From Sulfurimonadaceae bacterium (GTDB taxonomy: Bacteria; Campylobacterota; Campylobacteria; Campylobacterales; Sulfurimonadaceae): a DNA stretch of 63,242 bases. The stretch lies in the NCBI GenBank assembly GCA_016744575.1, contig JADGEC010000005.1:1-63242 (forward strand), read 5' to 3'. Below are positions 41,353 to 44,917 of the stretch, piece after piece (positions within the stretch are counted from its first letter, which is position 1; the number at the start of each line of letters is the position of its first letter). Under the pieces are notes generated by a model, which saw only the letters and a list, made by a program, of their open reading frames with translations, was not told the origin of the DNA and made no database searches. A program made the position numbers and the translations under genes.

Positions 41353-42114
41353 TCAATCGATCTTTGCCATCCACTTCTGTACTGCATGTAGAGATCGGTT
41401 AAGTCCAACGGTCTTGACTGAAGGCACAGACCGCTCTAGCTGATACTCGATCTCTCCGGTCGGTGTGATGACTCGGCTACCACCCCAGAAACCAAGACCA
41501 TCCTCAAAACCGACACGGTTGACAAAGACCACATAGGCACTACATAAGAGTGCAGTCGATCTTAAGATCGCATCCCACTGCTGCTCGATCAAGAGTCCAT
41601 CATCACTGAAATCACGTGCCGGGGAGTTTGCTATGACATAGATGATATCAGGTTTCTCTGCAGCAAGAGCCGCAATAGAGTCAGCTCTCCAAAGGTCTTC
41701 ACAGACAAGCATCGCTGTCTTTCCCACTTTTGTCTCAAAAGTCTCGATGCTCTCACCTTTAAAGAAGTAACGAGCCTCTTCAAACATCCCGTAGTTAGGA
41801 AGATAGACTTTATGATGCATATGGAGAAGCTCGCCGCCGCTAAAATAAAGTGCACTATTATACGTACGACCGTTCTCCTTGATCGCCGCTCCGATGACTA
41901 TGTCAATAGCTTGCGAGACAATACATAGTTCGGAGAGTTCTTCAATACTCCAGGAGTCCTCATAGACCTTATCCTGCAGCATATAGCCATTTAGTGCCAG
42001 TTCCGGAAATACTGCCACATCTGCACTCTCAGATAGTTCCTTAAGTGTCTTTATGCTGGCTTGCAGGTTTGAACGGTTCAGTCTTGGAGCGTTCTGTATC
42101 AGAGCTGTCTTCAT
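41353..42114 (-). CDS. carbon-nitrogen hydrolase (nitrilase superfamily)
   Basis: A 253-residue amidase-type enzyme. Numbering from the ATG at 42114, the catalytic triad is E38 (FPELAL), K101 (HHKVYLPNYG) and C137 (LVCEDLWR). The EDLWR context resembles the glutaminase domain of NAD synthetases and related hydrolases. A TTG three bases upstream is a less likely start. It overlaps the fabD stop by one base. Substrate unknown. Confidence 0.88.
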   Translation of the reverse strand: MKTALIQNAPRLNRSNLQASIKTLKELSESADVAVFPELALNGYMLQDKVYEDSWSIEELSELCIVSQAIDIVIGAAIKENGRTYNSALYFSGGELLHMHHKVYLPNYGMFEEARYFFKGESIETFETKVGKTAMLVCEDLWRADSIAALAAEKPDIIYVIANSPARDFSDDGLLIEQQWDAILRSTALLCSAYVVFVNRVGFEDGLGFWGGSRVITPTGEIEYQLERSVPSVKTVGLNRSLHAVQKWMAKID

Positions 42115-43049
42115 CAAAGTGCTTCGACTACCTTTTTAAGACTCTCCATATCAGAGACGTTCATCGTCGTCATCGCCTTGTTGATACGTCGGTTCAGACC
42201 TTTAAGAAGGACTCCGTTTCCAAATTCGATCGCCATATCTACATCATCAGCTATCGCAAGGATAGACTGCTTATAACGTACCGGACGGATAAGCTGCTCA
42301 GTGACCAGCTCGACTGCCTGCTGCTTAGTATGATAAGGCTTCTCTGTTACATTAGAGATGACATCGGCGACAAATGGATCACGTAGAGATCTCTCAAGCT
42401 CATGACGAAGTGGCGCTTGCGCACTCGATAGTAGTGGGCAGTGGCTTGCTACTGACATGTTCAATAAGATCGCACGCTTGGCACCTGCTTCTTTAAACGT
42501 TGCTTCTAGGCTTTCAAGATCACCCTTCAAGCCAGCGATGACTAACTGACCATCTTGGTTATAGTTAGCTGGCCAGACACTTTTGTTCTCTTTATTACGT
42601 GCATCTGTACAGATCGCATCGACACGCTCATCATCCAGACCGACTATAGCCATCATACCCGCATCAATACCTTCACAGGCTGCCTGCATCAGTGTCCCGC
42701 GTTTATGTACTAGTTCAACAGCGTCAAGGTAATCGATCGCTCCCGCAGCACAAAGGGCAGATATCTCACCAAGAGAGTGTCCAAGATATAAAGCCGGTTT
42801 GATCGTATGCGCTTCCTGAAACAGTTTGTAAGCGATTATGGAGACAAGTAAGATCGCCGGTTGCGTATAAGCGGTCTGATTGATCTGCTCGTTCTCTTCA
42901 AAAAGCAGTGCTTTAAAATCGACACCGATCCGTGCACCAGCTTTTTCAAACATCTCTCGTGCTGTAGCACTCTCATCATAAAACGACTTACCCATACCTA
43001 TTGTCTGACTTCCCTGTCCAGGAAAGATCATTGCTATTCGTTTACTCAT
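42114..43049 (-). CDS. fabD: malonyl-CoA:ACP transacylase
   Basis: A 311-residue fatty-acid synthesis enzyme that loads malonate onto acyl carrier protein. The nucleophile is S92 in GHSLGE, the N-terminal FPGQGSQ is exact, and the catalytic histidine lies in ASHCPLL near residue 200. Length and motifs are normal. It overlaps the preceding regulator gene by eight bases and the hydrolase gene by one. Confidence 0.96.
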   Translation of the reverse strand: MSKRIAMIFPGQGSQTIGMGKSFYDESATAREMFEKAGARIGVDFKALLFEENEQINQTAYTQPAILLVSIIAYKLFQEAHTIKPALYLGHSLGEISALCAAGAIDYLDAVELVHKRGTLMQAACEGIDAGMMAIVGLDDERVDAICTDARNKENKSVWPANYNQDGQLVIAGLKGDLESLEATFKEAGAKRAILLNMSVASHCPLLSSAQAPLRHELERSLRDPFVADVISNVTEKPYHTKQQAVELVTEQLIRPVRYKQSILAIADDVDMAIEFGNGVLLKGLNRRINKAMTTMNVSDMESLKKVVEAL

Positions 43050-43803
43050 CTAGTTGGTACTCCTTGTTCTCTGCGATTTTTTTACGTAGTGTGTTTCTGT
43101 TTAGTCCCAACCTCTCTGAGAGTTGTAACTGCGATCTGAACTGCTTTAGTCCGGCCCTGATCAACGGTACCTCATAAAGATACAAAAGGTCTCTGTAGTC
43201 ATTGTTCGAGCCTATCTTATCTGAGAGGAATTTCTCTGTGATTCGCATCAGGTCATTCTCAGTTATATTACTCAAAAGAAAGTAAAAGAAGAGTTGTCTA
43301 CGCAGCGAGGAGGAGTTCTCACTCAGGTCTGGCTCGATTCCACTCATATCGAGCTCTCTGTTCTCTCCAAAGAGTGCCTCAGCATCAAGATGATACTGCT
43401 TTTGAAGTTCCAGTACATCCTCTCGCCGTTCATCCAATGGAGGAAGGTAAAGGCGTACTGAGAACATCTCTTCAAGCTTCTCGTTCACATATCTATCACT
43501 TCCGGTAGCGACGACACGGACACTGTTTTGTACTATATGTTCATGTAGTACATCTAGATTGGAGATATTCTCAATATGTGTGATGATAAGTTCACTGTTA
43601 CTTTGAAGCGCAAGAATGATCTCGTTAAGATCTTTAGCATCTACAATAGTGGCATTGGGTAGGATATAACGTGCAAGTAGACTCTTACCTGTAGCTTTCT
43701 CACCCGATATAAGAGCGTTGACAGAAAGCAGTTTTAACAGGTTTGCTGTTTTAAATGCCTCAGTCGAGGCACTTGAAGCGGTTATAAAATTAGTGGCATC
43801 CAC
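43042..43803 (-). CDS. degenerate NtrC-like AAA protein with Fis-type DNA-binding domain
   Basis: A 253-residue protein related to sigma-54 activators but reduced. Walker A is present (GEKATGKS). The Walker B region reads ELIITHIEN without the usual DE, and the GAFTGA loop that contacts sigma-54 is missing. The sensor-1 and arginine-finger area remains (RVVATGS, RLYLPPLDERREDVLEL), and the C-terminus is a good Fis helix-turn-helix (LSERLGLNRNTLRKKI). The likely start is GTG at 43803, overlapping slyD by 14 bases; a longer frame would lie inside slyD. It may regulate without sigma-54. Confidence 0.8.
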   Translation of the reverse strand: MDATNFITASSASTEAFKTANLLKLLSVNALISGEKATGKSLLARYILPNATIVDAKDLNEIILALQSNSELIITHIENISNLDVLHEHIVQNSVRVVATGSDRYVNEKLEEMFSVRLYLPPLDERREDVLELQKQYHLDAEALFGENRELDMSGIEPDLSENSSSLRRQLFFYFLLSNITENDLMRITEKFLSDKIGSNNDYRDLLYLYEVPLIRAGLKQFRSQLQLSERLGLNRNTLRKKIAENKEYQLDE

Positions 43804-44311
43804 AGCTGTGGCCGTCGTCAGTCGAGCAACTACCACTAGCTTCAGCTTGGTTCTCAGCAGGGACACCGCTAAGTGCCTCATCAGCAGATGCGTCACGGAT
43901 ATTGTGGATAGTGACACTAAACATCAGGTCTTTTCCTGCAAGAGGGTGATTGAAGTCAATAAAGACAGTCTCTTCAGCGACCTCTTTGACAGTGACTTGA
44001 ACTGTACCGCCATCCTCACCTTGACCATAAAGTGTCATACCCACATTAAGGTCGATACCCGCAAACTGATCTTTTGAGAGCTCCTGCTGTGCTTCGTCGT
44101 TATACTCACCGTAAGCATCTGCAGCCTTTACAAGAAGATCACCTTTTTCACCGATAGTCATATCTGTGATACCAGACTCGAGACCTGGAATGATCTGACC
44201 TTTTCCAAACATGAATACCAATGGCTGACCACCGACATTACTGTCTACGATCTTTCCACCATCACGTACTTCATATTCCAGGGATACTACCTGATTTGAT
44301 TCGATTGCCAT
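43790..44311 (-). CDS. slyD: SlyD-type FKBP peptidyl-prolyl isomerase with metal-binding tail
   Basis: A 173-residue FKBP isomerase/chaperone with an inserted-flap domain. The N-terminal VSLEYEVRDGGKIVDSN and FNHPLAGKDL are typical, and the C-terminal tail CSTDDGHSCGCH carries cysteines and histidines for nickel or zinc. SlyD delivers nickel to hydrogenase in other bacteria, and hydrogenases are common in this group. It is one of two tandem copies. Confidence 0.93.
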   Translation of the reverse strand: MAIESNQVVSLEYEVRDGGKIVDSNVGGQPLVFMFGKGQIIPGLESGITDMTIGEKGDLLVKAADAYGEYNDEAQQELSKDQFAGIDLNVGMTLYGQGEDGGTVQVTVKEVAEETVFIDFNHPLAGKDLMFSVTIHNIRDASADEALSGVPAENQAEASGSCSTDDGHSCGCH

Positions 44312-44452: not shown

Positions 44453-44917
44453 TCAGGCGTCGAGCACGCCTCCGTTAGCTATTTCGACATCTGTCGCATC
44501 GCGCACATCGAGAAGTGTCACATTGAATTGTAGGTCATGGCCGGCAAGTGGATGGTTGAAATCGACTACAATAGTCTCATCTTTAAGACCGATCACAGTG
44601 ACTTGTATCGACTGGCCCTCTGCATCTTGTCCCTGAAGTGGTGTTCCAAGCTCTAGGTCGATTCCCTCAAACTGCTCTCTAGGGACCTCTTGTTGCGCCT
44701 CTTCATCATATTCGCCATAAGCATCAGCAGCCTTTACGACTATCTCAGCCTTATCAGCGATGTTCATCTCAGCCATTCCAGCCTCAAGTCCTGGGATGAC
44801 CTTACCTTTGCCAGTCAAAAACACTAATGGATCACCACCTACATTACTATCTACGATGCTACCATCTACTCGTACTTCGTACTCCATAGAGACGATCTGA
44901 TCTACTTTTACTGCCAT
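44453..44917 (-). CDS. second SlyD-like FKBP isomerase, no metal tail
   Basis: A 154-residue paralogue of the neighbouring SlyD, sharing VSMEYEVR, DSNVGG, AADAYGEYDEEAQQEV and DFNHPLAGHDL. It lacks the His/Cys tail, ending in IANGGVLDA. It should keep isomerase and chaperone activity without nickel storage. AGGAG precedes the ATG. The pair looks like a tandem duplication followed by division of labour. Confidence 0.92.
   Translation of the reverse strand: MAVKVDQIVSMEYEVRVDGSIVDSNVGGDPLVFLTGKGKVIPGLEAGMAEMNIADKAEIVVKAADAYGEYDEEAQQEVPREQFEGIDLELGTPLQGQDAEGQSIQVTVIGLKDETIVVDFNHPLAGHDLQFNVTLLDVRDATDVEIANGGVLDA

Follow-up and report, generated by a model that had tools for sequence, protein, structure and literature searches.

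A degenerate NtrC-like protein with a PAS-domain partner as a probable nitrogen regulator of Campylobacterota

Locus and anatomy of the NtrC-like protein

The window analysed here is a 63,242-nucleotide stretch of contig JADGEC010000005.1 from a Sulfurimonadaceae bacterium. On its minus strand, a gene encoding a degenerate NtrC-like protein (dNtrC) is located between a slyD-family gene and fabD. The annotated features are as follows.

42114..43049, minus strand: fabD (TIGR00128, E = 3.3e-96, above cut-off)
43042..43803, minus strand: dNtrC, degenerate NtrC-like regulator of 253 aa with a GTG start (homologue, fold and profile evidence)
43066..43170, minus strand: NtrC/Fis-type helix-turn-helix of dNtrC, residues 212-246 (PF02954 and the C-terminus of TIGR01818)
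43075..43101, minus strand: recognition helix NRNTLRKKI; the residue following NR tracks the operator half-site among homologues
43294..43317, minus strand: sensor II-like segment, residues 163-170 (assigned by eye)
43573..43590, minus strand: degenerate Walker B strand, residues 72-77, LIITHI (catalytic Glu absent)
43681..43704, minus strand: Walker A, residues 34-41, GEKATGKS (conserved)
43790..44311, minus strand: slyD-family FKBP gene with a His/Cys-rich tail (PF00254; PRK10737 below cut-off)
44453..44917, minus strand: second, upstream slyD-family copy without the His/Cys tail (family profile matches)

The dNtrC frame shares 14 nt with slyD, which ends at 43790, and 8 nt with fabD, which starts at 43049; since it overlaps both, translational coupling to the two neighbours is plausible. 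The frame is not a chance one because it is deeply conserved. The initial annotation had described a degenerate NtrC-like ORF overlapping a nickel-chaperone slyD and fabD, and the ORF, both overlaps and the identities of the two neighbours were confirmed, the latter by the PF00254, PRK10737 (below cut-off) and TIGR00128 matches. The two slyD-family genes form a tandem pair in which the His/Cys-rich tail occurs only on the copy adjacent to the regulator. In the comparison of loci, the window's genome and a near relative (L039) were the only ones with a flagged second slyD-family gene.

An alignment of 49 homologues was used to locate the functional motifs. In Walker A, G34 and G39 are found in all 49 sequences and K40 in 48. 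The Walker B columns carry an aspartate in seven homologues and a glutamate in one, the window protein having T-H at these positions, and the Walker A lysine and the Walker B strand are 29-39 residues apart throughout the 49. The GAFTGA segment of E. coli NtrC lies opposite a gap of the dNtrC family profile, as does the stretch holding the arginine fingers, for which no counterpart was found. In the sensor II-like segment N163 is invariant and R168 is either R or K in 49/49, while the C-terminal Fis/NtrC helix-turn-helix (NRNTLRKKI) shows almost no variation. The earlier description of a protein that keeps Walker A and a Fis helix-turn-helix and lacks both GAFTGA and the DE of Walker B is therefore in agreement with the bEBP alignment, which gave a gap at GAFTGA and no catalytic Glu.

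Pfam matches of dNtrC were below threshold, namely HTH_8 (PF02954; E = 1.5e-4, 21.8 bits against a cut-off of 22) and Sigma54_activ_2 (E = 8.9e-4). The top NCBIfam match was ntrC (TIGR01818; E = 6e-11), where its 41.8 bits fall far short of the 558.6 required. No receiver domain was matched in dNtrC by the profile searches, and its 253 residues begin at the AAA+ domain. The profile of the 49 homologues aligned with E. coli NtrC in hhalign at E = 1.5e-12, and its top match among PDB sequences was NtrC1 (E about 1e-11). The structure of dNtrC was modelled with AlphaFold2 from its own sequence and those of seven close homologues, with a mean pLDDT of 74 and lower confidence in the last third of the chain. 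The model could be superposed on PspF with a Z-score of 16.8 and an rmsd of 2.5 over 181 aligned residues (VIA-align). The first 39 structure matches listed were all bEBPs, which places the model in the AAA+ bEBP fold.

Since Walker A is kept and Walker B and GAFTGA are lost, nucleotide binding by the AAA+ shell is plausible, and on established bEBP biochemistry dNtrC should neither hydrolyse nucleotide nor engage sigma-54. The loss of GAFTGA, the Walker B pair and the arginine fingers likewise supports the initial expectation that the protein should not activate sigma-54.

Distribution, genomic context and the PAS partner

A single-protein search found a dNtrC match in 166 of 397 Campylobacterota genomes, representing 50 of 69 genera, with a single copy in the window's genome. 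Five of the 231 negative genomes were rechecked by profile and gave no family member. Most genomes of families f2 and f3, which are probably Helicobacteraceae and Campylobacteraceae respectively, are without dNtrC.

Genomic context was compared in 77 loci, which comprise best matches and diversity picks and are not a random sample (the incomplete L046 and L047 were left out), with neighbours identified by NCBIfam and Pfam on representatives. The dNtrC gene occurs between slyD and fabD in 53 of these loci, in several families. In each of the other 24, amtB, glnD or a PAS protein of about 235 aa is the immediate or next neighbour, often together with glnK. The slyD-fabD junction, which the initial annotation had proposed to compare across the phylum, is thus not a universal place for this gene. 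Among 15 genomes lacking dNtrC, slyD directly adjoins fabD in seven, a different gene separates the two in G316, and in the remaining seven, from family f2, no fabD was detected at a distance of up to 1.5 kb from slyD. All five f3 genomes examined are among those with adjoining genes; this agrees with the arrangement that the initial annotation gave for C. jejuni as far as f3, named by inference, is Campylobacteraceae. The conclusion drawn from it, that dNtrC is an inserted gene, did not hold, as the order is shared by 53 loci, the family occurs in 50 genera and its absence tracks that of the partner and operator described below. A local insertion was rejected on this distribution.

Three further observations were made at these loci. 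A protein of about 290 aa with hydrophobic stretches is encoded between amtB and dNtrC in several f7 genomes (L060 2588-3529 and relatives); it has no NCBIfam match and one sub-threshold Pfam match, and it may belong to the dNtrC system. In G254 (L049, genus g2) a divergent regulator occurs at an amtB/glnK/partner locus and the relatives have the slyD-fabD copy, which suggests replacement by transfer. The contig of L047 (JAUVDT010000109.1) is titled Gammaproteobacteria and carries the Campylobacterota order tolB-pal-ybgF-slyD-regulator; it is probably mis-binned.

The PAS protein was found in 167 of the 397 genomes, namely all 166 with dNtrC and G350, where the match is borderline (E = 8.9e-4), and is missing from 230 of the 231 genomes without dNtrC. 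Genus g15 and families f2, f3, f4 and f7 are each divided between genomes that carry the two genes and genomes that carry neither; a single clade therefore does not account for the match. In 18 loci the partner gene is unlinked to dNtrC, fifteen of them of the slyD-fabD type and three from family f7, where dNtrC is with amtB or glnD. Sixteen of the 18 unlinked copies (L100, for example, among L099-L117) lie directly beside an rpoD-cluster gene, one member of this cluster being identified by profile. L111 and L118, which gave no flagged partner, are not among the 18. This location possibly ties the partner to the primary sigma factor. PII is present in 166/166 dNtrC genomes and in 44 genomes without dNtrC.

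Comparison of the partner profile with one NtrB sequence was weak (hhalign E = 0.094), so a profile of NtrB homologues was built. It contains eight sequences, five of them lacking annotation and chosen by similarity, with Azonexus (L305) left out. Against this profile, the partner profile of 34 sequences aligned over 92 columns in the ATP-binding region (E = 6.7e-6, 84.7%, score 47). The reversed profile scored 14.5, the best of 40 column shuffles 17.4 and nine other families at most 21.9, this highest value being that of the unrelated TtcA family (E = 0.034). A second, weaker alignment covers the PAS segment (E = 0.006). The local alignment begins at NtrB column 198; neither the kinase boxes nor a His phosphoacceptor domain were recognised in the partner, and no conserved phosphoacceptor His occurs in the invariant columns of 16 partner sequences. 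Matches of the partner profile among PDB sequences were weak (IF5A, E = 0.037; PpsR PAS, E = 0.35). As judged by profile comparison, the partner is a degenerate NtrB relative with a remnant of the ATP-binding domain. The two top bEBPs of the window's genome, the sole matches to the full family model, are nearest to NifA and FlgR (below cut-off) and not to NtrC.

Candidate operator, promoters and target genes

E. coli-type GCAC-N-GTGC sites were found upstream of glnA in 0/30 cases, and a de novo dyad search was done for this reason. Its top dyads in the regions upstream of glnA and amtB/PII included TGTAT-N7-ATACA and TGATT-N7-AATCA. Sites at glnA were then counted as TG-N13-CA with at least 5/6 paired positions within 300 bp upstream, in 50 genomes with dNtrC (one per genus) and 30 without. 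The 17-bp palindrome was present in 37/50 and 1/30 respectively (Fisher p = 1.6e-10, genomes taken as independent), although all 30 controls have glnA and 25 have PII. In 200 Markov shuffles the means were 3.1/50 (maximum 9) and 1.5/30 (maximum 6). The sole control match (G022) is off-consensus at -275, and one of the 37 positives (G096), off-consensus at -144, looks like a chance match. Within genus g15 the site was found in 0/10 genomes lacking dNtrC, and G291, which has dNtrC, carries a perfect site.

Thirteen of the 50 promoters fail the pairing threshold. Eleven of them have a near-match (9-11/12 arm positions) at -79 to -118, one (G191) has a near-match only at -196 and one (G074) has none; the glnA start was taken from a profile hit in 20/50 genomes, where distances are up to about 27 nt too long. 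In the window's genome glnA is preceded by a half-consensus near-match only, TGCCTCTTTTTTAATCA. A full site, TGATTAAAATTTAATCA, is present there at amtB, and two further full sites lie at a divergent pair of a narK-type transporter and a nitrate-reductase-like gene. The palindrome is a candidate operator of dNtrC.

The position of the palindrome is closely related to that of a sigma-70-type -10 box. In 34 glnA promoters (G096, G122, G330 and the 13 dyad-less genomes being left out), a best TATAAT-like match within offsets 29-35 lies 32-33 bp downstream of the palindrome in 29, and the mean match is 3.6/6 at offset 32 and mostly 1.7-2.8 elsewhere. The palindrome centre is thus near -52 of a sigma-70 promoter. 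Such an arrangement favours a direct activation of the sigma-70 polymerase by the protein that would bind there. Repression of nitrogen genes in nitrogen excess by dNtrC and its partner is an unlikely alternative, though one with a precedent: a DNA-binding dimer without motor or receiver could repress simply, and the GAFTGA-less NtrC of Caulobacter represses sigma-70 promoters too, according to the accessible part of PMC10274813. With 32-33 bp between its end and the -10 box, however, the palindrome would leave that box and the start uncovered, and the constant spacing suggests contact with polymerase.

The same promoters bear on whether dNtrC is still a sigma-54 activator or co-regulator, as its AAA+ bEBP fold and the operator preceding rpoN in one genome (G133) might indicate. 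The sigma-54 -24/-12 pattern was found in 0/50 glnA promoters of dNtrC genomes and in 1/30 controls, whereas a -10 box lies at a fixed distance; GAFTGA, the catalytic Glu and an arginine-finger counterpart are all absent from the protein. A sigma-54 role was rejected on the promoter evidence, and we regard it as very improbable.

Exact sites were counted over seven whole genomes, using TGNTTA-N5-TAANCA in G000 (8 sites), G133 (9) and G249 (5) and TGTATA-N5-TATACA in G207 (6), G324 (9), G292 (8) and G310 (6). The resulting 51 sites, five to nine per genome, compare with 11 for the backward pattern. Flanks were read by eye, with profile identification for part of the gene copies. Clear nitrogen genes are found at 27 of the 51 sites, comprising glnA, amtB/glnK, urtA, urease, eutB and nitrate genes, and NtrC regulons elsewhere contain matching target classes, as far as the available part of PMC5343134 describes them. 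The other 24 include four without flank inspection and three probable nitrogen sites. One of these three lies at the gene of a binding protein of SsuA/NrtA type, one at a uroporphyrinogen methyltransferase gene behind a transporter, and one at the gene of an FeS protein that resembles the nitrate-reductase partner and has no NCBIfam match at the threshold used. Control over the genes for ammonium, glutamine, urea and nitrate has probably been retained by dNtrC.

Two individual sites are worth recording. A consensus operator, TGTTTA-N5-TAATCA, lies just upstream of rpoN in G133 (L259 1501), where nitrogen control of sigma-54 supply is possible. On contig C9 of the window's genome (L296), three amtB-type and two PII-type genes stand in a row behind one perfect operator.

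The location of the gene in the window could be taken to mean that dNtrC serves slyD and fabD, either by regulating nickel or fatty-acid functions or as a nucleoid protein like Fis, and the overlapping order slyD-dNtrC-fabD is indeed kept in several families. We consider this the least probable of all the explanations. The gene is with amtB, glnK or glnD in other families, no operator with one mismatch or fewer was found near dNtrC, slyD and fabD in the window, and only five to nine exact sites per genome occur in the seven genomes counted. The slyD/fabD context therefore appears misleading about function, and the amtB, glnK and glnD neighbours elsewhere, together with the operator, point to nitrogen control and not to nickel or lipid metabolism.

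Of the 50 genomes, 30 have Asn and 12 have Ile directly after NR in the recognition helix. When glnA and amtB sites were considered together in the 37 unambiguous genomes, Ile occurred with TGTATA in 10/10 and other residues with TGNTT in 26/27; the 13 genomes left out are five with mixed sites (including the Ile genomes G122 and G330) and eight unassigned. With glnA sites alone, Ile genomes have nine TGTAT, two TGNTT and one other site, and Val genomes have three TGNTT and one TGTAT. The tree gives at least two origins of Ile, one of them in a small clade with members of both f7 and f4. The independent pairs (n = 2) comprise one concordant pair and one without difference (p = 1).

Another possibility is that some other regulator binds the palindrome, with dNtrC and its partner only co-occurring through a shared nitrogen lifestyle. 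Binding by dNtrC is something we infer, presence and absence are clustered by phylogeny, and the helix change has two origins only. Nevertheless, this explanation is improbable. The palindrome has the layout of an NtrC site, 17 bp with TG-N13-CA, and it is missing in 29 of the 30 genomes lacking dNtrC, although all 30 have glnA and 25 have PII. In G207 and G292, moreover, the region that separates amtB from the divergent operon holding dNtrC-glnD contains two operators.

Proposed mechanism and relation to known systems

We propose, with a probability of roughly three in four, that the nitrogen regulator of these Campylobacterota is a pair derived from NtrBC which would have lost the phosphorelay and the sigma-54/ATPase functions and would act at sigma-70 promoters. 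In this proposal dNtrC would derive from NtrC by loss of the receiver, the GAFTGA loop, the Walker B pair and the arginine fingers, keeping the NtrC helix-turn-helix and an AAA+ shell that probably binds nucleotide. It would constitute one half of the nitrogen-response system in families outside f2 and f3, and would recognise sites centred near -52, of the form TGNTTA-N5-TAANCA in general and TGTATA-N5-TATACA in family f7. Bound there, it would most likely activate transcription under nitrogen limitation by interacting directly with RNA polymerase, and would need neither ATP hydrolysis nor sigma-54. The PAS partner would pass on the nitrogen signal, which probably comes from PII, through protein contact and not by phosphorylation. 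On balance we lean towards a fuller, phylum-wide version, in which both the NtrB and the NtrC halves work without their chemistry through PII-partner-regulator contacts, the recognition helix and the inner operator bases co-diverged, and the system was lost in host-adapted lineages. PII, NtrBC, Amt and GlnE are absent from C. jejuni according to the accessible part of PMC12795558.

Among the closest known counterparts is NtrC of Proteobacteria (NR I, glnG; TIGR01818), which resembles dNtrC in its helix-turn-helix class, AAA+ fold, site layout and core targets glnA, amtB and glnK with expansion to urea and nitrate genes. It differs in having a receiver, GAFTGA, a catalytic Walker B and arginine fingers, whereas dNtrC has sigma-70-type promoters and other inner site bases. 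NtrB (NR II, glnL; PRK11073) shares with the partner a PAS domain and the ATP-binding-region segment; in the partner, of about 235 aa, the phosphoacceptor domain and kinase boxes were not recognised. Degenerate bEBPs of the VpsR/VspR type from Vibrio share the bEBP fold with dNtrC (VpsR structures were matched), although their signal and targets differ and the VpsR chains aligned here are longer, at about 375 residues. The accessible part of PMC10274813 describes VspR as lacking GAFTGA and regulating sigma-70 promoters. It reports the same for the GAFTGA-less NtrC of Caulobacter and Rhodobacter capsulatus, which thus resembles dNtrC as an NtrC lineage without the sigma-54 loop that has nitrogen targets and sigma-70 promoters. 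According to the same source, these proteins keep the receiver, their activation makes use of its aspartyl phosphorylation, and the cognate kinase is NtrB, whereas the dNtrC system has neither receiver nor catalytic Walker B, and its partner is without a kinase core.

No description of the dNtrC family or of the dNtrC/PAS pair was found in the open-access literature, including the accessible parts of PMC4674564 and PMC12316311; prior work in subscription journals is possible. If the proposal is true, dNtrC and its partner would be the nitrogen-response regulator for much of the remaining phylum, including Sulfurimonas and relatives of Arcobacter, and would fill the place of a missing nitrogen regulator in a large bacterial group. 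It would also mean that a two-component system became a non-phosphorylating protein switch whose operators can still be traced.
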